64,000 nt of DNA from Sabellastarte sp. h YS-2021. Taxonomy: Eukaryota; Annelida; Polychaeta; Sabellida; Sabellidae. Positions 1 to 64,000 of the stretch are shown piece by piece (position 1 is the first letter of the stretch; every line of letters begins with the position of its first letter). A program made the position numbers and the translations under genes. Location: assembly GCA_964017235.1 (NCBI GenBank), contig OZ024931.1:97172221-97236220 (forward strand), given 5' to 3'. Under the pieces are notes generated by a model. That model did not search any database. It was not told the DNA's origin and was given only the letters and a program-made list of their open reading frames with translations.

Positions 1-984
1 GAAGGTATTAAACTATTAAGTGACTTCAGTGGTAGGCTGACAAGAATGGATCTAAGGAGACTCCCGACTGGAAGCCCTTAGGAGCAGCAAAGGCCCTGAC
101 ATCATGAGCTTTTAACTTGATGTAAAGGGTGGGCCTCCTGGTCAGAGAGCTCATAACATAGGATCACAGTCTGCTTGATCCAAGAGGAGATAGAGGCAGG
201 TGAGGTGTCTTGTTGGACACTTTCCTAAAGGAGACAAAACCACTTCCTTATTCTGTCTGAGGCCCTGTCCAGATAGTAGCGCAATGCTCTAACCGGAAAG
301 AGGGACCTGTCAGACTTGAGGGACCTATCCAGAGTTTGGGCCAGGGCTGGTATAACCACTGGGGCCACACTGTCTGGACCCTCTTTGGCTAGCTGATTCT
401 TGAAACGAAAGCTGGGTGATGGATACAGGAACACCTGTGATCAAACAGATTGGTGTCTGATATTCCTGTTTTGCCAAGCATGAATCTCACTTCTGCACTT
501 GCCTGACCCAAGGGCCAAGAGGATAAAAGGTCTTGAAGGTCAGGTGCTTCAAGGAAGCCTCTAGGATTGGTTCAAAAGGAGCCTTAGCTAGCTGGTGTAA
601 AAAACCAGGGATAGGGTCCAGGAGGGGATCCCCCTCCTACCTTTGGGTTTGTCTCTATGGAAACTATCCAGGAGACGAGTGAGATTTTCGTCTTGGTGCT
701 GATGATGACAGGTAAAATAACTAGTTTATCAGCAATGGCTGACCTGTAACCATCAATGGTGCTGGGCTTAACTTCCTGTCCTCAAAAAGGCATATAAGGA
801 AGTCAGCAACCGACTTATGGGGGGTGCCCTGAAGTCCACCTGATTAGTGATGGACCGCTTCGCCTCACTGACTGATCTGAATGATCCTCTTTGAGGAGCC
901 TCAATCCTTGCTGCCACTGCCTCAGAGAATCCCTGTTTCTTTCTTTTTTTTCTTTTTTTTGATTGCTGTGGCTCTAGGAGCCAT
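1..984 (-). pseudogene. DIRS-type tyrosine recombinase remnant (3' end lies left of window)
   Basis: Degraded tyrosine recombinase (YR) of a DIRS retrotransposon, the enzyme that in living DIRS elements integrates circular DNA without target duplication. Read on the minus strand, the N-terminal core-binding region comes first (residue words GFSEAVAARIEAPQRGS and DFRAPP, about 930-800). The catalytic domain follows (YPSPSF, NQLAKEGPDSVAPVV, SLFPVRALRYYLD, 434-225). Next come WIKQTVILCYELSDQEA and a KAHDVRAFAA block that holds the His-x-x-Arg catalytic pair (His codon 114-116, Arg codon 105-107). A one-base frameshift lies just before that block (about 119-124) and an in-frame TGA follows at 26-28. 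The nucleophilic Tyr would lie left of the window; it is visible in the next copy. The start is taken at the ATG overlapping the end of RT/RNase H, as is usual for DIRS. Unit 1 alone has GGCTAGCTG near 389, which breaks an overlapping frame. Confidence 0.88.
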
Positions 985-2516
985 GTAAGCAGATTCAGAT
1001 TTGTCAGATTTCTGTGAGGGATCTGATTGAGGCCTATGTTAACAGGTTGGGCAGGTTAGGCAGACTCAGTGGAATCTGATTGGACATGGTCATTAGATCC
1101 CAAAACCAAGGCCTGTTGGGCCTCCCCGGAGCAATAAGAATGATTCTCTTGCATGGGGAGTCCTGTAACTTCTCCACCACTTGCCCAAGATGGCTTCTGG
1201 TGGGAAGGCATATGTGTCCAGATCCTCCCATGGCAGACTTAGTGCATCCACTGCTGTGGCCAGGGGATCCAGTACGGGTGACACAAACAGAGGCAACTTG
1301 TTGTTGAACCTCGTGGCAAATAGGTCTATTTTAGGCCGGTGCCACCGGCTGCATATTGTTTGGCAGACCTCCTGAAGGAGAGACCACTCTGTTTGGATGG
1401 TCTGGCCTAGCTTGGCTAGCTTGTCTGCTACCACATTAGCTGGCCTGGAAAGTGTCGGGCTTTGAGAGTTACTTGATTTCTGGTGCACCCAGTCAAGATT
1501 CTCCAAAGTAGAGCACACAGTGGGCCCAACCTCATCCCTCCTTCATTGTTTATGTATGACACCACTGTGGTGTCATCAGTAGCTACAAGTACTATCTTGT
1601 GTATGCAGAGGTCTTGGATCTCTTTTAAAGCTAGAAAGACTGCCTTGAGTTCTAGATCATTCATATGCAACTTGCTTTCCGGAAGGAACCAGGTGCCTCT
1701 TGCAGTGCATTCGTTTAAGTGAGGGCCCCACCCTTCTTTTCATGTGTCTGAAAAGATTTGTAGAGCATGTTTTACTGGGTGTAATGGTTAGCCTGTAAGG
1801 CCAATGTCCTCTTGCAGCCACCATTGTAAATGTGGGTGCAAGGACCTTGGTATTGTAATCACCTTTTCTAGTGACTCTGGTACCCTCCAGTTGCTTTTGA
1901 GATGCCACTGTATGGGTCTCATATGAGGTCGGCCTAGGTGAAACTGCTTTTCTGTGGCTGTTAGTAAACCCATCACAGACATGAACTGCTGGACCAGACA
2001 AGCCAGTAGTGACAGTATTTGTAGTAGGATGTCCTGAAGTTCTGCCAATGGTCCGGTGTCTGTCGGACCCGACCGGCCCTGAGGTCGGACTGGTAACCTA
2101 CAAAATCGAAGATCTGCTTTGGTTCCAGTTCCGACTTTTCCAAATTCACCAGCCAACCTAGTTCTTGGCATATTTTCAACAGATATTGAGTATGCTGGAG
2201 ACAAACGTGGTGGGATGCTTATATCCTTCTACATGGCCATCAGTTTCACCTTCTTGTCATTACAGTGAACTCCAAGACTGCTGCAGACAGACCGAAAAGC
2301 AGCTTTGAATAGGTATGTCCAACCCTGGACATGAAATCTCAGATATTTCCTGGACTGTTCCTGTACTGGTATATGGAAGTAGGTATCCTTGAAAAAACTA
2401 TAGAGGTAACCCACTCCCCTTGTTGGAGGGAGGTTAGTCTGATGGTTTCCAGTGTCTCCATTTTTTTATTTTATTTAAAGCTGATGTAATGTCTGTAACA
2501 GGTACAGGTTCCTGCG
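955..2516 (-). pseudogene. DIRS-type reverse transcriptase/RNase H remnant
   Basis: Minus-strand remnant of the DIRS polyprotein that copies element RNA into DNA. From its upstream side: PVTDI and ALNKI words (2510-2470); METLETIRLTSLQQGEW and FKDTYFHIPV...RKYLRF, the RT palm entry (2460-2330); LMAM at about 2229; then KICQELGWLVNLEKSEL and FDFVGYQ (2180-2090). The YxDD active-site segment expected between LMAM and KICQELGW is missing: only about ten bases separate the flanking blocks (2205-2213). RNase H follows with FSDT, LELKAVFLALKE and VATDDTTVVSYIN, which supply the three acidic residues, but an in-frame TGA sits right after SDT (1740-1742). The tail contains KIDLFATRFNNKLPLFVSPV and, after a frameshift near 1160-1210, IILIAPGRPNRPWFWDL. 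Several frames must be joined to read it, so it cannot encode an enzyme. Unit 1 has a private NDKKVKL where other units have NDKEVKL. Confidence 0.92.
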
Positions 2517-3357
2517 GTGATTGACATAGCAGCTTACGATGTTCAGGGTCCTTGTCGAGCCTGGTCTGGTCTGGAAAAGGGGGTGTGTGGCCCTCCTTCT
2601 AAATTGTACTACCTGGGGACCAGCTCCCAAGGCTTCCTAAGTTCCCAAAGGTGATTTAGTCTGGCCCCTTCAGGTAAGTTTAGTAGAACCTTTGGTAGAC
2701 TGATAAAAATTTACTGTCCCTCTGGACACTGGTCCGATGTGGTGACAGTGATACCAGTTAACAGTCCACTTGTTCTTGCTGTGGTCCAGCCCGGGTGGGG
2801 CTGACACAACTCTTGACATTACATAGACTCTTGACCCTAGACCAGCCGCCTGTAAGGTGGAGCATGTATACATTGTCATTTGTATGATGGCTGACCCTTG
2901 ACCGGACACAATGAAACAGGTCCGATTGTGAACCACATTTTCTCTTGCTGTTCAAAAAATCCATTTGATTTCTCTGTAACCAGCAATTTTGGCCACAGCA
3001 ATTTTATGTAGCCCTTAGTAACCAGTAAAACTGACAGGCTAGGCTGACCATTGAATTTAGTTACTTGTCTACTAACTAGGTAGCCCCCAAGTGGTCTGCC
3101 GGTCGGTTCCGGTCCTTTGAAACCAGTATGAAAAGGGCAAGACAGCAACTGCACCTGATAGTAGGTCAGTAGTCTCTGTAACCAGCTGGTGTGAACTAAA
3201 ACTGCTCAGTGAAAACTGTATAGCTAGAAACCGGCTGGTGAGCCCTGTAACCGGCTGAAGCAGTTTCTGTGTAGGAAAAAGCTTCTTGTCAGGGACTACT
3301 CATTATTAGGCCTATCATCAGTCTTAGGCCACTGAATAGGCTGCTGATGAGGAGTGG
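2517..3357. other. Unassigned stretch upstream of the DIRS RT, rich in GTAACCAG/CCGGT words
   Basis: No gene is recognised. By position this would be the Gag side of the minus-strand DIRS element, but no Gag-like protein can be read; the open frames (for example 2876-3154 minus) are short and anonymous. The stretch is dotted with GTAACCAG, CCGGCTG and CCGGTCGG words, the same vocabulary as the following 627-bp segment. Equivalent stretches are 13061-13901, 23689-24529, 34242-35082, 44870-45710 and 55423-56263. Confidence 0.6.
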
Positions 3358-3984
3358 TTAGTTTTTGAAATTTACCACTGGTACAGACTTCTCTGCTACA
3401 GGCATCAGTCGACCAGTCAACTCACGTTTACTGTAATAAAAAGGAAAGAACGCGACCAGTGAGGTCATCTCCCCGAAACTGGTCACGTGATTCACCGACC
3501 AGGTCACGAAGCTGATCGTCATCTCCAATCAGGCAATCACGTTGTCCCTCCGACCAGCAAGCTGGTCACGTGACACACCGACTAACAATTGTTTCTAAAT
3601 ATAGCTCACAAGGGCTTTCCCAGCAACTGTGAAACTACAAATAAGACGTGCGTTCAAACAAACATTGTAATTAATGGAGGAAACGTGCAGTAAACTGAAT
3701 TCAACACAAGATAGTTGTGTGTACGGTTACTTCAACAACTGGTTACAGTGTACCGACCGGCTACACAGCCTTATACAGTAGCTTTAACAACTGGTTACAG
3801 TGTACCGGCAGGGTACCAACTACACAGCCTTGTACAGTTTTGTCAACTGGTTACAGAGTGTACCGACCCGTTACCAGTGGCACAGCCTGCACTGAACAGC
3901 TCGCTTCATATTAGCCGGCTACAAGCCTTCTTGCCTTCCAACCAGCACGAAGAATCAGCATCCCAAAGGTCTCCTACCAGCTGA
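3358..3984 (-). other. 627-bp segment inverted only in unit 1
   Basis: This block is the reverse complement of 13902-14528 in unit 2 and of the same block in units 3-6, each exactly 627 bp. The bases outside both breakpoints are collinear with the other units. It carries three short tandem repeats, two CACGTG E-boxes and a GTCGCGTTCTTT word. In units 2-6 that word stands in direct orientation to a second copy next to the CRE, which suggests the unit 1 orientation is the derived one. No long inverted repeat is visible at the breakpoints. Confidence 0.93.
3731..3890 (+). repeat. Three ~52-56 bp tandem repeats with AACTGGTTACAG core
   Basis: The core word AACTGGTTACAG occurs at 3737, 3789 and 3845, each followed by GTACCG and a TACACAGCC-like word. 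The repeat produces short open frames in two phases that look protein-like but only echo the repeat. The same repeats lie on the opposite strand in units 2-6 (for example about 13996-14155 and 24624-24783). Confidence 0.8.
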
Positions 3985-4039
3985 CAACTGGAATCACAAT
4001 AGACGTGAGTGCAAAGAATGCACTTCCGACCTTCTTGTT

Positions 4040-4230
4040 CGGTGAATCATGTGATTAACTTCGTGATCTGGTCAGTGAAAACATGTGACCAGCTTCGTGA
4101 TTTGAGGAAGACACGCGATTGGTTGACTGGATATGACGTCAGAGGTCGCGTTCTTTGAGCTGGCCGGTCGGCTGATGCTTTAAAAGCAGAGGACCCTGGC
4201 CCAGTGTGCTCTGTAGATGAAAGTCCTGGC
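4040..4230 (+). promoter_or_regulatory. Promoter-like block: E-box remnants, perfect CRE, TATA-like box
   Basis: A perfect palindromic CRE (TGACGTCA) sits at 4134-4141, about 45 bp before a TATA-like TTTAAAAG at 4179-4186. Upstream are CATGTG words where other units have CACGTG E-boxes. The block is a diverged direct duplicate of part of the 627-bp segment: both hold CTTCGTGA, a CTGGTC word, an E-box, GTCGCGTTCTTT and CTGATGC. A third, weaker copy of the CTGATGC/CAGAGAAGTC part lies near 4400-4470. Promoter activity is inference. Confidence 0.45.
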
Positions 4231-4886
4231 CGGTCTGAAGTCGGTTCTTCTTCTCAGCCGGCTGTACACTCAAACCAATGTCCTGGCCATCCACTGCCCT
4301 TATTACCGACACAAGGACCAGGTCCACAAGGGTGGGACTGAGAGTGTGCTCTGAAGAAATCTGAAGAATTCATCTCATGCTTCTGATGAAAAAATACTCG
4401 AGCTAGGCTGGTGTCACTGATGCTTTACAGCAGAGAAGTCATACCAGTGCGCTCTGATGAAGAATGCACCTTTCCTGGGGAATTCCTTCTATATACAGTG
4501 CTCAAAACTACGTAGACTGAAGTTCCCGTGATTTCTATTTGTAGTCATAGAAATAACGTTTCTATGGCGACTGTAGCTGGAATGTTAAAGAAGGTACATT
4601 CAACACAAAAGACACGGCTAAAATACCTGTAAGTAGTAAATCCATAATTCATCAATATTATCAATCTGCCCCTTACAACACAGAGGTTGAATGGGAGGAA
4701 ACTAGAAAAATTGCTGCCTTCATATATATATATCGATTACTGCCCTATCATCAACAGCTAGGGATTGTTTCCAGCAGATTTCTTCACTAAAATATCCCCA
4801 AAATAAGGTTAAAATCTGTCATAAAGTACACTTTTCTTTGAAAGCTCTGGAGATGTTGAAAACACGTCTGCACAGTACACGTGCCA
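4231..4886. other. Unassigned stretch with a small hairpin and an AT dinucleotide run
   Basis: No gene seen. It contains the third degenerate CTGATGC repeat (about 4400-4470), a short hairpin at 4541-4576 (ATAGAAA, loop TAACG, TTTCTAT), and a short ATATATATAT run near 4724-4733 followed by CGAT. Equivalent stretches are about 14775-15430, 25403-26058, 35956-36611, 46584-47239 and 57137-57792. Confidence 0.6.
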
Positions 4887-5080
4887 AACGAAAAAGATGC
4901 TATGATGTCAGGTTGTCTGGACAGGAAGGAAGTACGAGGTGCCATCTGGGGAGTGCACAGTACTACGGACCGGCCAGCCGGTGGAAACACAGGACGTCTT
5001 TTTCTGACGTTTGGCGGGCCGGTGTGCGCCGACCGGTTAAGGATATTGTCCATTGGATAGGATGTATTAACGCAATAAAA
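4887..5080 (-). mobile_element. TE1 element, minus-orientation copy
   Basis: This ~190-bp block is the reverse complement of the core of the plus-strand TE1 copy at about 9775-9958, with only about eight differences apart from its end. Shared landmarks on the minus strand are ATCCAATGGACAATAT, a CCGGTCGGCGCA word, CAGAAAAAGACGTCCTG and CATAGCATCTTTTTCGTT. Its outer end reads TTTTATTGCGTTAATA, a word also found beside TE1-plus and TE2. A minus frame (4787-5053) and a plus frame (4838-5197) both stay open across it; neither matches a family I know. The translation is the same in units 1-5. Confidence 0.75.
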
Positions 5081-5279
5081 AATACACGTCCTACCATCTG
5101 TATTGATTCAGAAGTGATGTGCATTGAGGTTGGAGTCTGGGGGAATAGAAGGGGAGTGGCAATGTTTAATTTTCCAGAACTACATTCCTTGGTTTGAATC
5201 TGTGGGAAAAATTGGCAATGAACTTAATTTGAAAATATTTTACATCAAAATGTTCTGACAATAAATGAATTCATCAAGA

Positions 5280-5368
5280 GTTATGGCTTTTTACCTAGTG
5301 GTTAACAAGTCTGGCTTCTGTTTTATCATAGGCTGTTACCTCTTTGTGGGTTCCACTCCCACAAGTGG
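5280..5368 (+). mobile_element. tRNA-like SINE head
   Basis: It resembles the pol III promoter of tRNA-derived SINEs. An A-box-like TAGTGGTTAAC begins at 5296, and a B-box/T-arm follows in which GTGGG (5346-5350) pairs with CCCAC (5358-5362) around a TTCCACT loop. The anticodon arm is not convincing, so it is not a working tRNA gene. It lies about 270 bp upstream of a LINE 3' end, which could be its former partner or simply a neighbour. Confidence 0.55.
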
Positions 5369-5639
5369 CAATGCTGCATGCCTGTCTCAGTTATTATGAC
5401 CCTGGTTGTTGAACATGATGTCCATCTTTATCTTAAACTTTAACCAATTATCAAAACACATCAATACAACTTGTGAGCATTTTTTAAAAATTTTTTAAAT
5501 TTTTTCTCTCTTAAAAAATTCACTTCTAATGGAACTTCCAGCTTTTGTACAGGGCTTCCAACTTTCCAAGGTTACAAGCCCGACAGCCATTAACTTTTTT
5601 GCATGAGTTTCGAACACTCATTGTAACTCTCTGTTTAGA

Positions 5640-6080
5640 GGTTTGTCATGTTTCAATCAGCACAAATTGCAAAGTATTCAGAATACCCTTGCTCATATTG
5701 TTACAAATCATAGAAAGTATGCTCATGTTACACCCATTCCAAAGAAACTCCACTGGTTCCTCCTTTCCACTAATCAGTCTTTAAGTCAGTCAAACATTAG
5801 GGCCATAGTTTTGCCTTTGATGCTCCTGAGATCTGGGAGGAACTCCCTCATGATGTGCGCAGTGCAACATCAGTTGCCTCCTTCAGAAAGAAGCTCAAAA
5901 CTTACCTGTTTGCAAAAGCCTATCCCCCATAGCCTCCCCTGTCACCCCTGTGTCCCATTGGTATGACTTGGCTATGTCCTTCGATTTACGTTAACTGCCT
6001 TCCTTTATGTTCAGATGTGCCTTAGAGTCCATCAGTGAGGGAGATTAAGCGCTATAAAAGTCCACATTAGATTAGATTAG
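5640..6080 (+). mobile_element. LINE (non-LTR retrotransposon) 3' end with ATTAG tail
   Basis: Only the last part of a LINE reverse-transcriptase ORF and its 3' UTR remain, the usual result of 5' truncation. The frame opening near 5643 gives KLQSIQNTLAHIVTNHRKY then HVTPIPKKLHW, the block that follows the RT domain in CR1/L2/Jockey-like LINEs. A second frame gives APEIWEELPHDVRSATSVAS and FRKKLKTYLFAKAY and ends at a TAG near 5930, the typical C-terminus. The two parts are out of phase and the sequence normally between them is missing. The element ends in GCGCTATAAAAG and three ATTAG repeats (6066-6080). Unit 1 reads GGGAGGAA where other units read GGGATGAA. Confidence 0.85.
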
Positions 6081-6340
6081 CTATAACATAGTTAAATTGC
6101 AGACATGTACGTCATGGCCTAGCCGAGCAACAACTACTTTCAGGTTCTCACTGTTGAGTAAATCAGATGTAACTGGAAAACTATTGCATTTAGAGTATTC
6201 TGTTTAAATATGTTGTTCAGATACTTATGGGTCAGCCATAACATAGTGAAATTGTAGATCTGTAGCTCATGGCATAGCTGAGCAATAGCTACTTTTAGAT
6301 TTTCACTGTTCAGTTAATCAGTTGTAACTTGAAAACTACT
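6081..6340 (+). repeat. 155-bp period tandem duplication
   Basis: Two diverged copies, 6081-6185 and 6236-6340, share ATAACATAGT, TCATGGC, TAGC/CGAGCAA, TTCTCACTGTT/TTTCACTGTT and GTAACT.GAAAACTA. The first begins directly after the ATTAG tail of the LINE. No coding signal. Other units: 16625-16884, 27253-27512, 37806-38065, 48434-48693 and 58987-59246. Confidence 0.75.
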
Positions 6341-6341
6341 A

Positions 6342-6594
6342 CTGAATACCTAGCCTTGCTTAAGGCTCAAATTTGCATGATCTTTTCAAACAAGCACACA
6401 GATATTTGGTATTCATAAAGCACTCATACATGTTAAGAGATAGAACCTAATCAGACAGTTTCTCTTAGCTGTATGCTGCTATAAAAGTCAGTACATGTAT
6501 GAGTACATTATAGAAACTGAAACTCCATTATCGGAACTGGAAACTTTCCCTAACTGCAAAGAAACTTGAGCCTTCAGCAAGGCTACTGAATACC
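6342..6594. mobile_element. TE3: 235-bp TIR element with 9-bp target-site duplication
   Basis: The direct flanks CTGAATACC (6342-6350 and 6586-6594) enclose an element with 20-bp terminal inverted repeats (6351-6370 and 6566-6585, one mismatch). Each end also folds on itself: AGCCTT, four bases, AAGGCT. It has no internal ORF, so it is a non-autonomous MITE. A 9-bp duplication would fit a Mutator-like source, but that assignment is inference. Confidence 0.8.
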
Positions 6595-6710
6595 ATTTGC
6601 AGGCCACAACTTTTGTGTCCTTTTCTTCTGTCACTCTGAAACTCAAAACACACAGTCAGCTGACACAGAGCCCGTTCACAGGCACTGATTGCTTGTTCCT
6701 TCTTGCATAG

Positions 6711-7450
6711 GATACCCTTGTACTACCCTGTGAGTCAAAAATTTGCTTGAAATGGGTCTATCTCTTATGATTTCCCAGATATTTACATTTTTCATTTTCC
6801 ATTAAAATTCAACATGGCTGCCAAAAGTGGTGAAAAATTAAATTTTGATCTGATGCACAGGATACTCTTAAAATACCCTGTGGGTCAAAAATTTGCTTGA
6901 AATGGCTCTATCTCTACTGGTTACTGAGATTTTTGCAATTTTTTATTTTCAGCTAAAATCTAAGATGGCCTCCAAAAGTGGCGAAAATGAAATTTTCTTC
7001 TTTTGCAAAGGATAAATTCATACTACCCTGTGGGTCAAAAAATTCCTCGAAATGGCTCTATCCCTTATGCTTTATGAGATATTTACATTTTATTATTTTC
7101 TGCTAAAATCCAAGATGGCCGCCAAAAGTGGCCCAAATTAATATTGTTCTATTTTCAATAGGACACCCTTGAACTACCCTGCAGGTCAAAGATTCTCTCA
7201 AATTAGCTGCATCTCTTACAGTTTCCGAGATATTTACACTTTTTTATTTTCCACTAAAATCCAAGATGGTCTCCAAAAGTTGCGAAAATTGAAATTTTTA
7301 TCTGTTACACAGGATACCCTTGTACTACTCTATGGGTGAAAAATTCACACACAACTGCTCTATCTCTAACGGCTTCTGAGATATTTACAATTTTTTAGTT
7401 TTGGCAAAAATCCAAGATGCCTATCAAAAGGTGCAAAAATTGAATTCCAG
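6711..7450 (+). repeat. Five ~150-bp tandem monomers with AAGATGGC-like core
   Basis: Monomers start at the words GATACCCTT, GATACTCTT, GATAAATTC, GACACCCTT and GATACCCTT (6711, 6861, 7011, 7162, 7313), giving a period of 150-151 bp. Each holds a CTACCCTGTGGGTCAAA-like word, CTCTATCTCT, GAGATATTTAC and, near its end, AAAATCCAAGATGGCCGCC or a variant. The monomers are well diverged from one another, so this small array is older than the 10.6-kb array around it. There is no ORF. The following 7451-7694 is AT-rich and empty. Confidence 0.9.
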
Positions 7451-7694
7451 AAATTCCAGATGAAACACCAGTTCTACAAATAAGCAAAACCCATTTACCA
7501 TAATGTACTTACATTCAATTAATCTGCTCATTTAATCAAGAATATATTGCCATTTACATTACAAAATATATGAACATTGCAGAGATCTTCCTTTGTTTCT
7601 TTAGACTACCTATAAATTATAGCATACTTTTCTTTCAAACATTAATTATCTATTTACACGTAACAGATCAATCATTTTGTTTTTACACTCAAAA

Positions 7695-7975
7695 TTGAAA
7701 ATTTTAATTACTTAAATGTAGCCTTCACAAGCTACAAGCTTACCATGTGGAACTGAATGCTGATCTTGGAAGGCCGCTGGCATCCGGCCAACGTCCAAGA
7801 AAAATAGACATTTATAGTTGGCCGTATCCTCAGGTTGTACTCTCGTGGCACTCTTCTCAATTCTTCCTCCTTTTTTCATTGCAATGTTGACCCATACCCC
7901 TCAGTAATACACCGGGGAAGCAGGGTGGGACTCTCTTCAGTTCCACATGGTAATAGCTTACCATGTGGAACTGAA
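7695..7975. mobile_element. TE2: TIR element, right arm partly deleted (type A form)
   Basis: The left arm at 7695-7757 ends in TTACCATGTGGAACTGAA. On the right, only the inner 18 bases of the matching arm remain (7936-7953), followed by TAGC and an 18-base direct copy of the left-arm end (7958-7975). The result is an 18-bp perfect stem with a 4-base loop. Units 2 and 4 keep 61 more bases at the centre of this palindrome. A minor frame inside (from 7835) does not resemble a known protein. Confidence 0.8.
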
Positions 7976-8080
7976 TCCAACCATCTGGTGGAGGGATTAC
8001 AACTGAGACTGGAAGGAGTCAATTTAATCCCAACCATCTGGTGGAGGGATTACAACTGAGACTGGAAGAAGTCAATTTTT
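7976..8080 (+). repeat. 53-bp tandem duplication
   Basis: Two nearly identical 53-bp copies of CCAACCATCTGGTGGAGGGA and the following sequence to GAGTCAATTT, directly abutting the TE2 palindrome. Other units: 18581-18685, 29148-29252, 39762-39866, 50329-50433 and 60882-60986. Confidence 0.85.
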
Positions 8081-8534
8081 CTTGGATTTGAATTAATAAA
8101 TAGAATGAATGTTTTAGAAAATGCCAGTCTGAGTCCCATTTACAGTGCCCCGTCCCAGAGACTGAACCTGCAATAAGGCAAAAACCAGAAAGAATAAATG
8201 ACAGCACTAAAAACTGTCAGGATATTTGAATGGAGGAGAGAAGTGCAGCCTATGCTCACTTTGAGAAGTAAAAAGGCCCTAGGGCTTGAGAATCTTGTAA
8301 ATTTAAGCCACCCTATAATGAGATGAAACTTGTACTGGTTCATACAGAACATACATACTCCCTGTAAATGGGGAATAACAACCTTCTAGCCATCTAGCCT
8401 TGCCAGAGGCATTAATACATATAGTACAGACCCAACTGTTTGCATTATATTTATTCTTCATAATGTTCTCATATATTTATTAAGCTTAAGCTTAGGTAAC
8501 TGAGAAAGGCCTCTGATACAGGATTACCTATCAT
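8081..8534. other. AT-rich stretch, nothing recognised
   Basis: Short frames on the minus strand (8019-8207, 8140-8352) have no recognisable domain and span the 53-bp repeat. A doubled AAGCTTAAGCTTA word lies near 8482. Equivalent stretches: 18686-19139, 29253-29706, 39867-40320, 50434-50887 and 60987-61440. Confidence 0.6.
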
Positions 8535-8880
8535 TTGCCCCCCAGAGAATTTCCCCTTCGCTGATAGTCCTCCAATTTCCTTTACAAAGTTATGGTTTTC
8601 CCCCAGTGATACAGTGATTATATTTTGAGTTTTCCCCTTTATATTTAAGTCATTTAGTGCTAGGAATATACATTGAATTTAGTTAATTTAGTTAGTTACA
8701 CCAACTGGAGTAAAACCGGGACATGGTTTTTTATTTCTTCCCCCTCAAAAGTGCATAACTTATGTTTCATAGTCCTGTTAAAATATGAAGGGGGGAAATC
8801 ACAATATCACAGGGGGAAAACCATACATTGGTTGAAAAAAGGGGGGCAATCAGTGGGGGAAATTCAGTTAAGGGAAAATC
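8535..8880. repeat. Imperfect inverted repeat with C-run and G-run arms
   Basis: The left arm has runs of 4-6 C, the right arm runs of 5-6 G. The best-paired parts are 8591-8611 and 8805-8825, which match 20 of 21 bases as inverted copies (TATGGTTTTCCCCC and its complement). Pairing weakens outward. This may be the fold-back core of another MITE; no target-site duplication was found. Other units: 19140-19485, 29707-30052, 40321-40666, 50888-51233 and 61441-61786. Confidence 0.7.
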
Positions 8881-9741: not shown

Positions 9742-10073
9742 TTGCAAATTTAATAAGTAAATTAAATTTTTATAAGTTAATACCCTATCCAATGGACAAT
9801 ATGCTTAACCGGTCGGCGCAGACCGGCCCGCCAAATGTCAGAAAAAGACGTCCTGTGTTTCCACCGGCTGGCTGGTCCGTAGAACTGTGCACTCCCCAGA
9901 TGGCGCCTCGTACTTCCTTCCTGTCCAGACAACCTGACATCATAGCATCTTTTTCGTTGTCTAAAACTCTTTGACCCCTAGTAAGCTGATAGCGGGGTCG
10001 GTGGGAGGGTCTTGTGTGTCCATTGGATAGGGTATTAACTTATAAACATTGAATTTACTTATTAAATTTGCAA
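9742..10073 (+). mobile_element. TE1 element, plus-orientation copy with 57-bp TIRs
   Basis: The terminal inverted repeats 9742-9798 and 10017-10073 match at 55 of 57 positions; their inner ends read ATCCAATGGACA. The interior repeats the core of the minus copy at 4887-5080. A short frame (9630-9974) reads through it and is not recognised. Unit 1 has AAATGTC where other units have AAACGTC, a CpG transition. No clear target-site duplication. Confidence 0.85.
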
Positions 10074-52567: not shown

Positions 52568-52604
52568 GACCTATAGGTCCAGGCCTGGATTGACCTTAAG
52601 GTCA
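52568..52604. repeat. Three adjacent perfect palindromes
   Basis: Unchanged. Confidence 0.9.
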
Positions 52605-53890: not shown

Positions 53891-55422
53891 GTAAGCAGAT
53901 TCAGATTTGTCAGATTTCTGTGAGGGATCTGATTGAGGCCTATGTTAACAGGTTGGGCAGGTTAGGCAGACTCAGTGGAATCTGACTGGACATGGTCATT
54001 AGATCCCAAAACCAAGGCCTGTTGGGCCTCCCCGGAGCAATAAGAATGATTCTCTTGCATGGGGAGTCCTGTAACTTCTCCACCACTTGCCCAAGATGGC
54101 TTCTGGTGGGAAGGCATATGTGTCCAGGTCCTCCCATGGCAGACTTAGTGCATCCACTGCTGTGGCCAGGGGATCCAGTACGGGTGACACAAACAGAGGC
54201 AACTTGTTGTTGAACCTCATGGCAAATAGGTCTATTTTAGGCCGGTGCCACCGGCTGCATATTGTTTGGCAGACCTCCTGAAGGAGAGACCACTCTGTTT
54301 GGATGGTCTGGCCTAGCTTGGCTAGCTTGTCTGCTACCACATTAGCTGGCCTGGAAAGTGTCGGGCTTTGAGAGTTACTTGATTTCTGGTGCACCCAGTC
54401 AAGATTCTCCATAGTAGAGCACACAGTGGGCCCAACCTCATGCCTCCTTCATTGTTTATGTATGACACCACTGTGGTGTCATCAGTAGCTACAAGTACTA
54501 TCTTGTGTATGCAGAGGTCTTGGAACTCTTTTAAAGCTAGAAAGACTGCCTTGAGTTCTAGATCATTCATATGCAACTTGCTTTCCGGAAGGAACCAGGT
54601 GCCTCTTGCAGTGCATTCGTTTAAGTGAGGGCCCCACCCTTCTTTTCATGTGTCTGAAAAGATTTGTAGAGCATGTTTTACTGGGTGTAATGGTTAGCCT
54701 GTAAGGCCAATGTCCTCTTGCAGCCACCATTGTAAATGTGGGTGCAAGGACCTTGGTATTGTAATCACCTTTTCTAGTGACTCTGGTACCCTCCAGTTGC
54801 TTTTGAGATGCCACTGTATGGGTCTCATATGAGGTCGGCCTAGGTGAAACTGCTTTTCTGTGGCTGTTAGTAAACCCATCACAGACATGAACTGCTGGAC
54901 CAGACAAGCCAGTAGTGACAGTATTTGTAGTAGGATGTCCTGAAGTTCTGCCAATGGTCCGGTGTCTGTCGGACCCGACCGGCCCTGAGGTCGGACTGGT
55001 AACCTACAAAATCGAAGATCTGCTTTGGTTCCAGTTCCGACTTTTCCAAATTCACCAGCCAACCTAGTTCTTGGCATATTTTCAACAGATATTGAGTATG
55101 CTGGAGACAAACGTGGTGGGATGCTTATATCCTTCTACATGGCCATCAGTTTCACCTCCTTGTCATTACAGTGAACTCCAAGACTGCTGCGGACAGACCG
55201 AAAAGCAGCTTTGAATAGGTATGTCCAACCCTGGACATGAAATCTCAGATATTTCCTGGACTGTTCCTGTACTGGTATATGGAAGTAGGTATCCTTGAAA
55301 AAACTATAGAGGTAACCCACTCCCCTTGTTGGAGGGAGGTTAGTCTGATGGTTTCCAGTGTCTCCATTTTTTTATTTTATTTAAAGCTGATGTAATGTCT
55401 GTAACAGGTACAGGTTCCTGCG
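53861..55422 (-). pseudogene. DIRS reverse transcriptase/RNase H remnant, type B
   Basis: B-type residues throughout, with the common active-site deletion and RNase H stop. Confidence 0.9.
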
Positions 55423-56263
55423 GTGATTGACATAGCAGCTTACGATGTTCAGGGTCCTTGTCGAGCCTGGTCTGGTCTGGAAAATGGGGTGTGTGGCCCT
55501 CCTTCTAAATTGTACTACCTGGGGACCAGCTCCCAAGGCTTCCTAAGTTCCCAAAGGTGATTTAGTCTGGCCCCTTCAGGTAAGTTTAGTAGAACCTTTG
55601 GTAGACTGATAAAAATTTACTGTCCCTCTGGACACTGGTCCGATGTGGTGACAGTGATACCAGTTAACAGTCCACTTGTTCTTGCTGTGGTCCAGCCCGG
55701 GTGGGGCTGACACAACTCTTGACATTACATAGACTCTTGACCCTAGACCAGCCGCCTGTAAGGTGGAGCATGTATACATTGTCATTTGTATGATGGCTGA
55801 CCCTTGACCGGACACAATGAAACAGGTCCGATTGTGAACCACATTTTCTCTTGCTGTTCAAAAAACCCATTTGATTTCTCTGTAACCAGCAATTTTGGCC
55901 ACAGCAATTTTATGTAGCCCTTAGTAACCAGTAAAACTGGCAGGCTAGGCTGACCATTGAATTTAGTTACTGGTCTACTAACTAGGTAGCCCCCAAGTGG
56001 TCTGCCGGTCGGTTCCGGTCCTTTGAAACCAGTATGAAAAGGGCAAGACAGCAACTGCACCTGATAGTAGGTCGGTAGTCTCTGTAACCAGCTGGTGTGA
56101 ACTAAAACTGCTCAGTGAAAACTGTATAGCTAGAAACCGGCTGGTGAGCCCTGTAACTGGCTGAAGCAGTTTCTGTGTAGGAAAAAGCTTCCTGTCAGGG
56201 ACTACTCATTATTAGGCCTATCATCAGTCTTAGGCCACTGAATAGGCTGCTGATGAGGAGTGG

Positions 56264-56890
56264 TCAGCTGGTAGGAGACCTTTGGGATGCTGATTCTTCG
56301 TGCTGGTTGGAAGGCAAGAAGGCTTGTAGCCGGCTAATATGAAGCGAGCTGTTCAGTGCAGGCTGTGCTGCCGGTAACGGGTCGGTACACTCTGTAACCA
56401 GTTGACAAAACTGTACAAGGCTGTGTAGTCGGTTCCCTGCCGGTACACTGTAACCAGTTGTTAAAGCTACTGTATAAGGCTGTGTAGCCGGTCGGTACAC
56501 TGTAACCAGTTGTTGAAGTAACCGTACACACAACTATCTTGTGTTGAATTCAGTTTACTGCACGTTTCCTCCATTAATTACAATGTTTGTTTGAACGCAC
56601 GTCTTATTTGTAGTTTCACAGTTGCTGGGAAAGCCCTTGTGAGCTATATTTAGAAACAATTGTTAGTCGGTGTGTCACGTGACCAGCTTGCTGGTCGGAG
56701 GGACAATGTGATTGGCTGATTGGAGATGACGATCAGCTTCGTGACCTGGTCGGTGAATCACGTGACCAGTTTCGGGGAGATGACCTCACTGGTCGCATTC
56801 TTTCCTTTTTATTACAGTAAACGTGAGTTGACTGGTCGACTGATGCCTGTAGCAGAGAAGTCTGTACCAGTGGTAAATTTCAAAAACTAA
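56264..56890 (+). other. 627-bp segment, common orientation
   Basis: The most divergent copy: GGACAATGTG, TCGCATTC and GTGCTGCC are CpG losses, and GGTTCCCTG replaces GGTACCCTG. Confidence 0.9.
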
Positions 56891-56945
56891 CAACTGGAAT
56901 CACAGTAGACGTGAGTGCAAAGAATGCACTTCCGACCTTCTTGTT

Positions 56946-57136
56946 CGGTGAATCACGTGATTAACTTCGTGATCTGGTCGGTGAAAACACGTGACCAGCT
57001 TCGTGATTTGAGGAAGACACGCGATTGGTTGACTGGATATGACGTCAGAGGTCGCGTTCTTTGAGCTGGCCGGTCGGCTGATGCTTTAAAAGCAGAGGAT
57101 CCTGGCCCAGTGTGCTCTGTAGATGAAAGTCCTGGC
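56946..57136 (+). promoter_or_regulatory. Promoter-like block with CRE
   Basis: CRE at 57040-57047. This is the only unit with two intact CACGTG boxes near this block (about 56954 and 56988). Confidence 0.45.
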
Positions 57137-57792
57137 CGGTCTGAAGTCGGTTCTTCTTCTCAGCCAGCTGTACACTCAAACCAGTGTCCTGGCCATCCAC
57201 TGCCCTTATTACCGACACAAGGGCCGGGTCCACAAGGGTGGGACTGAGAGTGTGCTCTGAAGAAATCTGAAGAATTCATCTCATGCTTCTGATGAAAAAA
57301 TACTCGAGCTAGGCTGGTGTCACTGATGCTTTACAGCAGAGAAGTCATACCAGTGCGCTCTGATGAAGAATGCACCTTTCCTGGGGAATTCCTTCTATAT
57401 ACAGTGCTCAAAACTACGTAGACTGAAGTTCCCGTGATTTCTATTTGTAGTCATAGAAATAACGTTTCTATGGCGACTGTAGCTGGAATGTTAAAGAAGG
57501 TACATTCAACACAAAAGACACGGCTAAAATACCTGTAAGTAGTAAATCCATAATTCATCAATATTGTCGATCTGCCCCTTACAACACAAAGGTTGAATGG
57601 GAGGAAACTAGAAAAATTGCTGCCTTCATATATATATATCGATTACTGCCCTATCATCAACAGCTAGGGATTGTTTCCAGCAGATTTCTTCACTAAAATA
57701 TCCCCAAAATAAGGTTAAAATCCGTCATAAAGTACACTTTTCTTTGAAAGCTCTGGAGATGTTGAAAACACGTCTGCACAGTACACGTGCCA

Positions 57793-57986
57793 AACGAAAA
57801 AGATGCTATGATGTCAGGTTGTCTGGACAGGAAGGAAGTACGAGGTGCCATCTGGGGAGTGCACAGTACTACGGACCAGCCAGCCGGTGGAAACACAGGA
57901 CGTCTTTTTCTGATGTTTGGCGGGCCGGTGTGCGCCGACCGGTTAAGGATATTGTCCATTGGATAGGATGTATTAACGCAATAAAA
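57793..57986 (-). mobile_element. TE1 element, minus copy
   Basis: Carries two CpG transitions (GGACCAGCC and CTGATGTTT). They alter the minus frame (V to I, R to W) but are silent in the plus frame. Confidence 0.75.
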
Positions 57987-58185
57987 AATACACGTCCTAC
58001 CATCTGTATTGATTCAGAAGTGATGTGCATTGAGGTTGGAGTCTGGGGGAATAGAAGGGGAGTGGCAATGTTTAATTTTCCAGAACTACATTCCTTGGTT
58101 TGAATCTGTGGGAAAAATTGGCAGTGAACTTAATTTGAAAATATTTTACATCAAAATGTTCTGACAATAAATGAATTCATCAAGA

Positions 58186-58274
58186 GTTATGGCTTTTTAC
58201 CTAGTGGTTAACAAGTCTGGCTTCTGTTTTATCATAGGCTGTTACCTCTTTGTGGGTTCCACTCCCACAAGTGG
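58186..58274 (+). mobile_element. tRNA-like SINE head
   Basis: Unchanged; T-arm at 58252-58268. Confidence 0.55.
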
Positions 58275-58545
58275 CAATGCTGCGTGCCTGTCTCAGTTAT
58301 TATGACCCTGGTTGTTGAACATGATGTCCATCTTTATCTTAAACTTTAACCAATTATCAAAACACATCAATACAACTTGTGAGCATTTTTTAAAATTTTT
58401 TTTAATTTTTTCTCTCTTAAAAAATTCAGTTCTAATGGAACTTCCAGCTTTTGTACAGGGCTTCCAACTTTCCAAGGTTACAAGCCCGACAGCCATTAAC
58501 TTTTTTGCATGAGTTTCGAACACTCATTGTAACTCTCTGTTTAGA

Positions 58546-58986
58546 GGTTTGTCATGTTTCAATCAGCACAAATTGCAAAGTATTCAGAATACCCTTGCTC
58601 ATATTGTTACAAATCATAGAAAGTATGCTCATGTTACACCCATTCCAAAGAAACTCCACTGGTTCCTCCTTTCCACTAATCAGTCTTTAAGTCAGTCAAA
58701 CATTAGGGCCATAGTTTTGCCTTTGATGCTCCTGAGATCTGGGATGAACTCCCTCATGATGTGCGCAGTGCAACATCAGTTGCCTCCTTCAGAAAGAAGC
58801 TCAAAACTTACCTGTTTGCAAAAGCCTATCCCCCATAGCCTCCCCTGTCACCCCTGTGTCCCATTGGTATGACTTGGCTATGTCCTTCGATTTACGTTAA
58901 CTGCCTTCCTTTATGTTCAGATGTGCCTTTGAGTCCATCAGTGAGGGAGATTAAGCGCTATAAAAGTCCACATTAGATTAGATTAG
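58546..58986 (+). mobile_element. LINE 3' end
   Basis: Type A form with private TGCCTTTGAG near 58924. Confidence 0.85.
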
Positions 58987-59247
58987 CTATAACATAGTTA
59001 AATTGCAGACATGTACGTCATGGCCTAGCCGAGCAACAACTACTTTCAGGTTCTCACTGTTGAGTAAATCAGATGTAACTGGAAAACTATTGCATTTAGA
59101 GTATTCTGTTTAAATATGTTGTTCAGATACTTATGGGTCAGCCATAACATAGTGAAATTGTAGATCTGTAGCTCATGGCATAGCTGAGCAATAGCTACTT
59201 TTAGATTTTCACTGTTCAGTTAATCAGTTGTAACTTGAAAACTACTA

Positions 59248-59500
59248 CTGAATACCTAGCCTTGCTTAAGGCTCAAATTTGCATGATCTTTTCAAACAAG
59301 CACACAGATATTTGGTATTCATAAAGCACTCATACATGTTAAGAGATAGAACCTAATCAGACAGTTTCTCTTAGCTGTATGCTGCTATAAAAGTCAGTAC
59401 ATGTATGAGTACATTATAGAAACTGAAACTCCATTATCGGAACTGGAAACTTTCCCTAACTGCAAAGAAACTTGAGCCTTCAGCAAGGCTACTGAATACC
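59248..59500. mobile_element. TE3 with 9-bp target-site duplication
   Basis: CTGAATACC on both sides; type A. Confidence 0.8.
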
Positions 59501-59616
59501 ATTTGCAGGCCACAACTTTTGTGTCCTTTTCTTCTGTCACTCTGAAACTCAAAACACACAGTCAGCTGACACAGAGCCCGTTCACAGGCACTGATTGCTT
59601 GTTCCTTCTTGCATAG

Positions 59617-60356
59617 GATACCCTTGTACTACCCTGTGAGTCAAAAATTTGCTTGAAATGGGTCTATCTCTTATGATTTCCCAGATATTTACATTTTTCA
59701 TTTTCCATTAAAATTCAACATGGCTGCCAAAAGTGGTGAAAAATTAAATTTTGATCTGATGCACAGGATACTCTTAAAATACCCTGTGGGTCAAAAATTT
59801 GCTTGAAATGGCTCTATCTCTACTGGTTACTGAGATTTTTGCAATTTTTTATTTTCAGCTAAAATCTAAGATGGCCTCCAAAAGTGGCGAAAATGAAATT
59901 TTCTTCTTTTGCAAAGGATAAATTCATACTACCCTGTGGGTCAAAAAATTCCTCGAAATGGCTCTATCCCTTATGCTTTATGAGATATTTACATTTTATT
60001 ATTTTCTGCTAAAATCCAAGATGGCCGCCAAAAGTGGCCCAAATTAATATTGTTCTATTTTCAATAGGACACCCTTGAACTACCCTGCAGGTCAAAGATT
60101 CTCTCAAATTAGCTGCATCTCTTACAGTTTCCGAGATATTTACACTTTTTTATTTTCCACTAAAATCCAAGATGTTCTCCAAAAGTTGCGAAAATTGAAA
60201 TTTTTATCTGTTACACAGGATACCCTTGTACTACTCTATGGGTGAAAAATTCACACACAACTGCTCTATCTCTAACGGCTTCTGAGATATTTACAATTGT
60301 TTAGTTTTGGCAAAAATCCAAGATGCCTATCAAAAGGTGCAAAAATTGAATTCCAG
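59617..60356 (+). repeat. Five ~150-bp monomers
   Basis: Type A with private AAGATGTTC in the fourth monomer and ACAATTGTTT in the fifth. Confidence 0.9.
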
Positions 60357-60600
60357 AAATTCCAGATGAAACACCAGTTCTACAAATAAGCAAAACCCAT
60401 TTACCATAATGTACTTACATTCAATTAATCTGCTCATTTAATCAAGAATATATTGCCATTTACATTACAAAATATATGAACATTGCAGAGATCTTCCTTT
60501 GTTTCTTTAGACTACCTATAAATTATAGCATACTTTTCTTTCAAACATTAATTATCTATTTACACGTAACAGATCAATCATTTTGTTTTTACACTCAAAA

Positions 60601-60881
60601 TTGAAAATTTTAATTACTTAAATGTAGCCTTCACAAGCTACAAGCTTACCATGTGGAACTGAATGCTGATCTTGGAAGGCCGCTGGCATCCGGCCAACGT
60701 CCAAGAAAAATAGACATTTATAGTTGGCCGTATCCTCAGGTTGTACTCTCGTGGCACTCTTCTCAATTCTTCCTCCTTTTTTCATTGCAATGTTGACCCA
60801 TACCCCTCAGTAATACACCGGGGAAGCAGGGTGGGACTCTCTTCAGTTCCACATGGTAATAGCTTACCATGTGGAACTGAA
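60601..60881. mobile_element. TE2, right arm partly deleted
   Basis: Type A form, which shows that the chimera junction lies upstream. Confidence 0.8.
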
Positions 60882-62648
60882 TCCAACCATCTGGTGGAGG
60901 GATTACAACTGAGACTGGAAGGAGTCAATTTAATCCCAACCATCTGGTGGAGGGATTACAACTGAGACTGGAAGAAGTCAATTTTTCTTGGATTTGAATT
61001 AATAAATAGAATGAATGTTTTAGAAAATGCCAGTCTGAGTCCCATTTACAGTGCCCCGTCCCAGAGACTGAACCTGCAATAAGGCAAAAACCAGAAAGAA
61101 TAAATGACAGCACTAAAAACTGTCAGGATATTTGAATGGAGGAGAGAAGTGCAGCCTATGCTCACTTTGAGAAGTAAAAAGGCCCTAGGGCTTGAGAATC
61201 TTGTAAATTTAAGCCACCCTATAATGAGATGAAACTTGTACTGGTTCATACAGAACATACATACTCCCTGTAAATGGGGAATAACAACCTTCTAGCCATC
61301 TAGCCTTGCCAGAGGCATTAATACATATAGTACAGACCCAACTGTTTGCATTATATTTATTCTTCATAATGTTCTCATATATTTATTAAGCTTAAGCTTA
61401 GGTAACTGAGAAAGGCCTCTGATACAGGATTACCTATCATTTGCCCCCCAGAGAATTTCCCCTTCGCTGATAGTCCTCCAATTTCCTTTACAAAGTTATG
61501 GTTTTCCCCCAGTGATACAGTGATTATATTTTGAGTTTTCCCCTTTATATTTAAGTCATTTAGTGCTAGGAATATACATTGAATTTAGTTAATTTAGTTA
61601 GTTACACCAACTGGAGTAAAACCGGGACATGGTTTTTTATTTCTTCCCCCTCAAAAGTGCATAACTTATGTTTCATAGTCCTGTTAAAATATGAAGGGGG
61701 GTAATCACAATATCACAGGGGGAAAACCATACATTGGTTGAAAAAAGGGGGGCAATCAGTGGGGGGAAATTCAGTTAAGGGAAAATCAACAATCACCCTG
61801 ACACAGTGTGCATTATGGCAAAAAAAATTTACACTTGCATTATGGTTTTAGATAGCCTGGAAGGCCAGGCTATTGGCCATGAATCAAGAATAGAGAAAAA
61901 AGACATCAAGTAACATAAACACCACTTTATTTACTGTAACACTTCAGCAATTTCCTGTGAATATTTTTGACAAATTTTGTTGAATAGAAATTAAATGTTG
62001 ACTGCATTATCATACTTTGAATTGTACAGCATTTAACAGACTTTGAATGTATGAAATGAACTTATCATGTAGATCTGGTTAAAAAGGGAAATTCATGAAA
62101 TATTTTTTTAGGGATGAGAGAAATTAAACAGAATAATAGGCAAAAGTTTTACAGTAAGATTCAGTGAAAAAAGAGAACAGGGAACTTTGTTGAAGCCAAC
62201 ATAATTCATTTAATTTATAAACCTTATTTGTGATTTAGATGGAGATCTTTGCAGTTTTAAGTAAAGTAGGAACAAGTAAGACATGGTTATGTTAGTAGTG
62301 TGGAGTTACATTGAACAACACTAGTTGAAATAATGTTTATTTTGTAAGCTCGATTGGTTGCTTAATATACTACAGTTACATTCAAAATACCTTAGATGAT
62401 TTTGTGAGCTGAAAAGGGTTGATGAAAAAAGAAAGAAAAATTTATAACTGTTAAGATTCCATTAATAGATAATCACATTTTTGCTGAATCTTTTAATCTT
62501 GTGATATTTTAACAAACTCCCTTCCCCACACTAAACTTGAACCAAATAGCAAGGATTTTTGACATTCAACTTGTATATTCAGACTCTACTGTATTATGGT
62601 TAATGAAAAGTGCATGTCTCATCTTTTGTGTAATGCTGGGGAAAAATT

Positions 62649-62980
62649 TTGCAAATTTAATAAGTAAATTAAATTTTTATAAGTTAATACCCTATCCAAT
62701 GGACAATATGCTTAACCGGTCGGCGCAGACCGGCCCGCCAAACGTCAGAAAAAGACGTCCTGTGTTTCCACCGGCTGGCTGGTCCGTAGAACTGTGCACT
62801 CCCCAGATGGCGCCTCGTACTTCCTTCCTGTCCAGACAACCTGACATCATAGCATCTTTTTCGTTGTCTAAAACTCTTTGACCCCTAGTAAGCTGATAGC
62901 GGGGTCGGTGGGAGGGTCTTGTGTGTCCATTGGATAGGGTATTAACTTATAAACATTGAATTTACTTATTAAATTTGCAA
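62649..62980 (+). mobile_element. TE1 element, plus copy
   Basis: TIRs intact. An AATAGCAAGG word about 95 bp upstream is shared with unit 3 only. Confidence 0.85.
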
Positions 62981-63121
62981 TTTTATTGCGTTAATACATC
63001 CATCCAATGGACAATATGCTGAATAACTACCGCTTGGTCGGCGGGTAAGTTACTAGGGACTTATGTGAACTCACAAATGATAGCAAATTTTAACCTATGG
63101 TCTAGGCTGACTTTGTTAGGA

Positions 63122-63158
63122 GACCTATAGGTCCAGGCCTGGATTGACCTTAAGGTCA
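63122..63158. repeat. Three adjacent perfect palindromes
   Basis: Unchanged. Confidence 0.9.
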
Positions 63159-63385
63159 GGAAACCCTGTAAGGCCTTGGTCGGTTGCCAACAGCCGGTTA
63201 CCCGGGGCTATACCGATGTCGCCCCCCCTTTTTAACAGACCTGCTCTGAGGTAGGGGAAGAGAGGGATGAGTTCAGTCCCAGAAAGCACATAAACCTCCC
63301 GAAGGAAGCACGTCGTATTATATAGTATGTGCATGTAGAACTGTTAACATTATGTACATACATACAAATCTCCTCAATCTAAGGG

Positions 63386-64000
63386 TCACTTGTGGTTCTG
63401 CTGAGCAGCCAACACCGAGCCCAATTGGTAAAGCTCTGAGTCAGCCCAAGCCACACCTTTCAGATAGAACAGTGTGAAGGTATTAAACTATTAAGTGACT
63501 TCAGTGGTAGGCTGACAAGAATGGATCTAAGGAGACTCCCGACTGGAAGCCCTTAGGAGCAGCAAAGGCCCTGACATCATGAGCTTTTAACTTGATGTAA
63601 AGGGTGGGCCTCCTGGTCAGAGAGCTCATAACATAGGATCACAGTCTGCTTGATCCAAGAGGAGATAGAGGCAGGTGAGGTGTCTTGTTGGACACTTTCC
63701 TAAAGGAGACAAAACCACTTCCTTATTCTGTCTGAGGCCCTGTCCAGATAGTAGCGCAATGCTCTGACCGGAAAGAGGGACCTGTCAGACTTGAGGGACC
63801 TATCCAGAGTTTGGGCCAGGGCTGGTATAACCACTGGGGCCACACTGTCTGGACCCTCTTTGGCCAGCTGATTCTTGAAACGAAAGCTGGGTGATGGATA
63901 CAGGAACACCTGTGATCAAACAGATTGGAGTCTGATATTCCTGTTTTGCCAAGCATGAATCTCACTTCTGCACTTGCCTGACCCAAGGGCCAAGAGGATA
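63386..64000 (-). pseudogene. DIRS tyrosine recombinase remnant, cut by window end
   Basis: Stop codon at 63386-63388; C-terminal and catalytic parts present with the usual lesions. Private ATTGGAGTCTG (others ATTGGTGTCTG) near 63925. Confidence 0.88.
63476..64000. repeat. Macrosatellite unit 7, partial, begins as type B
   Basis: The first 525 bp of another unit. CTGACCGG near 63763 is the B form, so a B-type start follows the chimeric unit 6 where strict alternation would predict A. The array continues past the window. Confidence 0.93.

Follow-up and report, generated by a model that had tools for sequence, protein, structure and literature searches.

Organization of the array in the window

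The stretch of DNA analysed here (64,000 nt, the window) consists of tandem units in a single orientation, which we assigned to sequence classes.

1..64000: part of an array, six full units plus 525 bp of a seventh (starting at 63476), head to tail
1..10568: unit 1 (u08), 10568 bp, class A, bearing a 637-bp inversion
3353..3989: the 637-bp inverted segment of unit 1, opposite in orientation to its counterpart in the remaining five full units of the window; the derived state
10569..21172: unit 2 (u09), 10604 bp, class B, the coordinate reference; 61-bp insertion near 18498-18555
21173..31740: unit 3 (u10), 10568 bp, class A
31741..42353: unit 4 (u11), 10613 bp, class B; 61-bp insertion near 39679-39736
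42354..52921: unit 5 (u12), 10568 bp, class A
52922..63475: unit 6 (u13), 10554 bp, class C; the alternation is broken here

Pieces one unit apart (shifts of 10,544-10,614) are 98.60-99.40% identical in the six listed comparisons, and pieces two units apart (21,120-21,172) are 99.59-99.76% identical in the three listed. The first-pass annotation had described the window as a macrosatellite built of A-B dimers. Units 1-5 do alternate A-B-A-B-A, giving about 2.5 dimers, but units 6 and 7 break the alternation, which is not the rule of the array. The proposed diagnostic sites were recovered, with CTAACCGG in units 1, 3 and 5 and CTGACCGG in units 2, 4, 6 and 7, and with LFATRF in units 1, 3 and 5 and LFAMRF in units 2, 4 and 6; units 6 and 7 thus share the CTGACCGG allele. 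Two further alternating sites had been listed, the indels of 14 bp and 61 bp. Both fit the observed shifts (10,553/10,567 and 10,544/10,605), but the 61-bp insertion of units 2 and 4 is absent from unit 6. That unit opens a run of four near-identical C units continuing to the right of the window: by full-unit distance it has 38 differences from unit 2 and 36 from unit 4, and 2, 1 and 3 from the next three units.

A degenerate DIRS-type element in the monomer

More than half of the unit is taken up by a decayed element with the anatomy of a DIRS-type retrotransposon.

9742..15624, minus strand: whole degenerate DIRS-type element, 5,883 bp, recognized by terminal repeats, internal region and homology to the L034 element
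9742..9958, plus strand: terminal repeat at the element 3' end, with a 195-bp inverted match to 15431-15625 (94%)
15431..15624, minus strand: terminal repeat at the element 5' end
10017..10116: internal complementary region, 57 bp (96%) matching one element end and an abutting 43-44 bp (93%) matching the other
11873..13174, minus strand: broken reverse transcriptase-RNase H region (tblastn with the 622-aa L034 frame, 50% identity, E 8e-133)
10577..11973, minus strand: broken tyrosine recombinase region (tblastn with the 506-aa L034 frame)
20346-26252, 30914-36805, 41527-47433 and 52095-57986: further whole elements
1-5080 and 62649-64000: partial elements
15625..20345: non-DIRS remainder of the unit, 4.7 kb
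16623-16882: 155-bp tandem repeats
17247-17990: 151-bp tandem repeats

The two parts of the internal complementary region join at unit position 10109/10110, and this region and the element ends occur in every full unit of the window. The 622-aa L034 frame matches RVT_1 (E 2.9e-22), while RNase H models and, for the 506-aa frame, Phage_integrase were matched below the curated cut-off; the matches listed for the five L034 frames (E cut-off 0.1) include no methyltransferase domain. The 11 open pieces of unit 1 gave no reverse transcriptase or recombinase match; one of them has matches below cut-off to RVT_3 (E 3.7e-4) and RT_RNaseH (E 0.023). We dismissed matches to P3A, Baculo_p24 and TPR_Vps41 (E 0.08-0.45) as chance. 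Judged by its terminal repeats, internal region and homology to L034, each monomer carries one broken 5.88-kb DIRS-type tyrosine-recombinase retrotransposon. The first-pass description of the unit as made wholly of dead transposons thus holds for ~55% of its length (5,883/10,604 bp), but a transposon nature of the remainder is unsupported. Some of the 151-/155-bp repeat sequence also occurs at two places on contig C3. A gene array built on an RNA gene was considered and dropped: no RNA gene reached Rfam gathering scores in window positions 1-21800, and no tRNA was found in 1-22000.

Extent and edges of the array

The array, its classes and phrases, the mosaicism of the units and the anatomy of the DIRS element were all observed on the assembly, with unit order and types as given by it and 264 kb of array sequence read. 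The window lies wholly inside a tandem array of 0.47 Mb (C5:96,960,159-97,427,489), which bears out the annotated head-to-tail macrosatellite and far exceeds the window. Markers gave 43 rows on C5, mostly in steps of ~10.6 kb, and 20 further units on a separate contig, C485, which has the same units over the marker-covered stretch. C485 could represent a second haplotype of the C5 array, and its 20 units may therefore not be independent of those on C5. Genome-wide, exact marker patterns place the array on C5 and C485 only, plus three single places, a search that diverged arrays would escape. With long head-to-tail units, one array and tens of copies, this is a single-locus macrosatellite. An 8-base site from the first-pass annotation was discarded as a genome marker, as it occurs at 7929 places and its reversed control at even more.

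Both array edges pass into other sequence, at unit positions 6505 and 8365, in the non-DIRS part; the right edge bears an extra copy of unit 6753-8365 at 85-91% identity. Unequal-crossover models predict more diverged units at the edges, a trend that is only weakly seen: the leftmost unit has 98.1-99.0% DNA identity to unit 2, near interior values, and six of the eight copies listed left of C5:97.06 Mb show 96-97% identity to the query protein, as do some interior copies. Units are set apart by local variants, comprising the 637-bp inversion, a ~0.5-kb duplication, a 2.8-kb triplication and small indels. There is also a 200-N gap within the array.

Unit classes, local phrases and mosaic units

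Unit alignment and a tree, proposed as a check on the A/B split, defined classes A-D by distance for 21 of 23 complete units, with unit 6 falling into a third class rather than a strict A/B scheme; u02 (N gap) and u04 (2.8-kb triplication) stand outside the alignment and its counts. In the 8693-site comparison, which excludes dense-variation windows and gap columns, the four adjacent C units show 1-4 mutual differences. Beyond units 1-5 the array contains C-C-C-C runs, D-A pairs and A-C-D triplets, and an additional B-A pair lies about 32 kb outside the window. Mid-unit markers, with one C5 unit lacking a marker row typed by a second pattern (62 array rows; 20 rows elsewhere in the genome dropped), identified three B units on C5, two in the window and one about 36 kb beyond, and none on C485.

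Alternating runs of at least five units were reached in 2838 of 20000 shuffles, given four unit classes; for this test the neighbours of u02 and u04 were taken as adjacent, and u00, u01 and u19 were placed in their nearest class. After D the next unit was A in all 13 cases (6/6 on C5, 0/10000 shuffles; 7/7 on C485, 12/10000), and after B it was A in all three cases on C5 (172/10000). On C485, D and A alternate over a run of eight, a length that 96 of 10000 shuffles reached. Phrase structure, not alternation, is what exceeds the shuffles.

Among the 21 aligned units, mean differences for lags 1, 2 and 3 were 35.3, 30.8 and 35.6 respectively; the lag-2 value is only weakly low (p 0.04, one among eight lags tried). 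Class matches over all 43 C5 units numbered 14 at lag 1 (shuffle mean 7.42), 16 at lag 2 (7.25) and 15 at lag 3 (7.13). The lag-2 excess is not a sign of dimers, because lags 1 and 3 are also in excess and because it disappears without the first 13 units (C5 units 14-43 give 9 matches against a shuffle mean of 7.6). C5 spacings were equal within 10 bp in 14/41 cases at lag 1 (p 0.018), 12/40 at lag 2 (p 0.095), 14/39 at lag 3 (p 0.0098) and 14/38 at lag 4 (p 0.0094), and on C485 no lag gave p below 0.07; as spacing lumps different classes, marker phrases were used in its place. Distances, lags and marker phrases revealed no array-wide period, with local dimers and triplets occurring, and the reported A-B alternation is one of several local patterns, probably produced by uneven exchange between units.

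The units are mosaics. The four-gamete test was failed by 746 of 3321 site pairs, mean r2 fell from 0.29-0.35 below 500 bp to 0.135 past 3.5 kb (0 of 2000 permutations as strong), and trees from the two unit ends conflict over u19 and u20.

Discussion

We consider it highly probable that the array expanded by unequal crossing-over together with gene conversion, in steps of one to three units copied as a block. The founder event would have been the tandem duplication of a 10.6-kb segment, comprising a whole DIRS-type element and 4.7 kb beside it, perhaps when copies of a 1.6-kb repeat segment flanking the element recombined; tandem duplication of transposons through recombination between copies is described in a review (PMC12628747). 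Misaligned units would then have exchanged sequence by unequal crossing-over and by gene conversion, two processes indistinguishable here, enlarging and homogenizing the array. A shift of one, two or three units during exchange would duplicate a block of that size, so that C-C-C-C runs, B-A or D-A pairs and A-C-D triplets come to lie next to one another, with the A-B dimer as one local block. The array itself is presumably without function.

A true dimeric higher-order repeat, in which a 21.2-kb A-B pair amplifies across the whole array, would account for the alternation of units 1-5 and for in-window lag-2 distances of 17, 14 and 10 against 38-49 at lag 1, and the D-A run of eight on C485 indicates that dimers of another kind exist. 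We nevertheless regard it as unlikely: the fourth in-window lag-2 pair (units 4 and 6) shows 36 differences, the mid-unit markers give only three B units on C5 and none on C485, unit 6 and the next three read C-C-C-C, lag 2 is unremarkable over C5 units 14-43, and unit 1 has 10 differences from u03, at a distance of 59 kb, but 17 from unit 3. Somewhat less likely again is that the assembler stretched a shorter array or dispersed copies, as the N gap and the second contig with the same units might suggest; distinct local variants among the units and edges that run into other sequence on both sides argue against such an artefact.

Arrays of dead transposons can act as piRNA clusters, and a role in the chromosome, as such a cluster or as a centromere, could be envisaged here. 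DIRS elements cluster near centromeres in nototheniid fish (PMC6387122). Exact markers restricted to C5, C485 and three single places speak against this role, which we hold to be very improbable; by the same markers, which would miss diverged arrays, this is no general centromere repeat. Hardly less improbable is the broader proposal of a functional locus, for example a small-RNA source directed against less decayed genomic DIRS copies or a local centromere, whose phrases would record the use of exchange registers. The least likely account is amplification through the element's own circular intermediate or recombinase. Replication through a circular intermediate is thought likely for DIRS elements (PMC3266345), and all full units of the window contain the element ends and internal region, but a DIRS circle would not include the 4.7 kb of non-DIRS sequence that separates two complete element ends in the unit, and the array edges lie in that non-DIRS part, away from the element ends.

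Transposon-built megasatellites with higher-order repeats are already known from human. The 3.5-kb MaLR-derived megasatellite, whose monomers derive from LTR retrotransposons, forms six-unit higher-order repeats, with 25 arrays spread over 9 chromosomes (11 according to the abstract) (PMC2588610). In both systems retrotransposon sequence is repeated in tandem units, later changed by putative unequal crossing-over, and the local dimers and triplets seen here may correspond to the higher-order structure of the human arrays; the array described here has a 10.6-kb DIRS-bearing monomer, one locus found and mixed local periods. A human chromosome 8 array with 12-kb units (0.6-1.7 Mb) is alike in monomer and array size, a comparison by size alone (PMC2588610). 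These human cases weaken the earlier suggestion that a higher-order structure with so large a monomer is unusual. In size, inverted terminal repeats, internal complementary region, RT-RNase H and tyrosine recombinase the element resembles DIRS1-like retrotransposons (PMC3266345), but here it is broken and lies inside a tandem repeat; the word 'tandem' is absent from the main text of that source. Local build-up of DIRS sequence is shared with the pericentromeric DIRS1 of nototheniids, where FISH reveals insertion hot spots (PMC6387122), whereas here one insertion was multiplied with its neighbouring sequence.

Because the unit is 10.6 kb long and units diverge by ~1%, ordinary long reads can tell them apart. 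The steps of array growth, including one-, two- and three-unit blocks, mosaic units and one inversion, could thus be read directly, making the array a convenient natural test for unequal-crossover models.

Extent and edges of the array

Within the 1.79-Gb assembly (647 contigs), the window lies at C5:97,172,221-97,236,220. The commonest shifts in its self-match are 21,181, 10,553 and 10,628 bases, and it contains six full units of 10,554-10,613 bp each and 525 bp of a seventh. With 100 kb added on either side, all of the resulting 264 kb is array, bar a single 200-N gap, which lies within the array at C5:97,110,390 (stretch L012). On the left, the array begins at C5:96,960,159, corresponding to unit position 6505 (unit coordinates refer to unit 2 of the window). 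On the right, the match stops near C5:97,427,489, at unit position 8365, beyond a disturbed stretch (L030:3303-7419) composed of disturbed 151-bp repeats and an extra copy of unit positions 6753-8365 (85-91%), possibly a trace of the founder recombination.

Marker patterns were searched as exact matches, a procedure that diverged copies would escape. On C5, each of two 35-place patterns gave 43 rows in the array; on a second contig, C485, the first gave 20 rows and the second 19. The first pattern had one extra place, on C8, and the second had two, on C3. The third and fourth patterns each gave 42 rows on C5 and 20 on C485, with no matches elsewhere for the third and 20 places elsewhere for the fourth. 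On C8 the match falls in a diverged relative of the DIRS-type element described below, with longer pieces at 73-85%. The C3 places carry 155-bp repeats that resemble the unit's own (mostly 80-87%), one of them together with a piece of the element end (83%).

Unit classes and their order

The alignment took in 21 of the 23 complete units of the 264 kb (u00-u22; window units 1-6 are u08-u13), and 159 of 8693 gap-free sites outside dense windows were variable. The units fell into four classes, for which a tree gave the support listed here.

Unit classes in the 264 kb, with tree support
Class A (0.98): u03, u08, u10, u12, u18, u21; u00 and u19 closest to A
Class B (0.95): u09, u11, u17, with u01
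Class C (0.88): u05, u06, u13-u16
Class D (1.00): u07, u20, u22

The first-pass annotation had described the window as an A-B-A-B-A alternation. This is correct for units 1-5; the B insertion, however, is missing from unit 6, and the allele of unit 7 is that of unit 6. As reported, the diagnostic site CTAACCGG is present in units 1, 3 and 5 and CTGACCGG in units 2, 4, 6 and 7, while LFATRF occurs in units 1, 3 and 5 and LFAMRF in units 2, 4 and 6; the 61-bp insertion is found only in units 2 and 4. Across the 21 units the order is A B A C C D A B A B A C C C C B A A D A D, in which the longest alternating run is five, a length reached in 2838 of 20000 shuffles.

Mid-unit markers, typed by hand, gave A A C D A C D A C for the last units on C5 and A g D A D A D A D A C D A D A C D A C D for C485, where g is a unit without any class marker. 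D was followed by A in six of six cases on C5 (reached in 0 of 10000 shuffles) and in seven of seven on C485 (12 of 10000), counts that are perhaps not independent because C485 may represent an allele of part of C5. In its phrases C485 looks like the right-hand end of the array on C5. An alternating run at least as long as the eight seen on C485 came up in 96 of 10000 shuffles. Copying within the array therefore seems to have involved blocks of two and three units, and no single period governs the whole.

Mosaic units

Among 82 informative sites, all four combinations were seen in 746 of 3321 pairs. Mean r2 was 0.29 at 0-250 bp and 0.35 at 250-500 bp, falling to 0.135 at 3.5-5.4 kb; none of 2000 permutations of site positions gave an equally strong fall with distance. 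Trees of opposite unit ends placed u19 and u20 differently. Such mosaicism is what exchange between units leaves behind.

The DIRS-type element of the unit

Over half of the unit is occupied by one element:

Unit 2 coordinates 9778-10604, continuing to 5056 of the next unit, minus strand: DIRS-type element, one per unit, 5,883 bp

Inverted repeats of 195 bp (94%) form its ends, and the complements of both ends are joined in an internal region of about 100 bp; both features are present in every full window unit. In size and layout the element agrees with DIRS1-like elements as published (PMC3266345). The remaining 4.7 kb of the unit contains 151- and 155-bp tandem repeats, part of them common to the C3 places.

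A relative on contig C4 (L034:1395-7676) shares these ends and the internal region and contains six frames that range from 187 to 761 aa. Its 622-aa frame matched RVT_1 (E 2.9e-22), with RNase H models below the cut-off, and its 506-aa frame matched Phage_integrase below the cut-off (E 3.5e-5); the 761-, 431- and 320-aa frames had no match at E up to 0.1. Less decayed DIRS copies thus exist in the genome. The frames of the relative match the unit piecewise, at 45-76% identity. In the unit itself no minus-strand frame of at least 150 aa occurs in window positions 1-22000, so its coding regions are broken. DIRS-related copies are widespread: 150 of 52,330 first-look candidates were scored, 63 of them within the array. 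No stop interrupts the 149-aa query frame in 62 of these 63 array rows, which is no evidence of selection because the units are so alike.

Local rearrangements

Four units of the 264 kb, all with the A mid-unit marker, have a 637-bp segment in inverted orientation: unit 1 (window 3353-3989) and three others, at 97,073,522, 97,116,658 and 97,334,676. The breakpoints, judged by eye, are clean. The C8 relative spans the left breakpoint in the opposite orientation, which makes the inverted state the derived one. Outside the window, at C5:97,123,874-97,132,600 (L014, L015), one unit holds three tandem copies of a 2.8-kb piece (unit 294-3085), a nested duplication within the macrosatellite unit. D units at C5 97,167,166, 97,305,154 and 97,326,268 (L018, L025, L028) also have a roughly 0.5-kb duplication (unit 5552-6045), which accompanies unit lengths of 11.0-11.1 kb.

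Origin and standing of the array

Unequal crossing-over together with gene conversion would produce single-type runs, pairs, triplets and mosaic units, and we infer that this combination explains the patterns of the array. A literature search by title found no DIRS-bearing macrosatellite, and one may still be in print. Human arrays made of retrotransposons, which show higher-order repeats of six units and putative unequal crossing-over (PMC2588610), are the same kind of structure. We judge that this kind of array is already known from human, and that the DIRS-bearing array is a further member.
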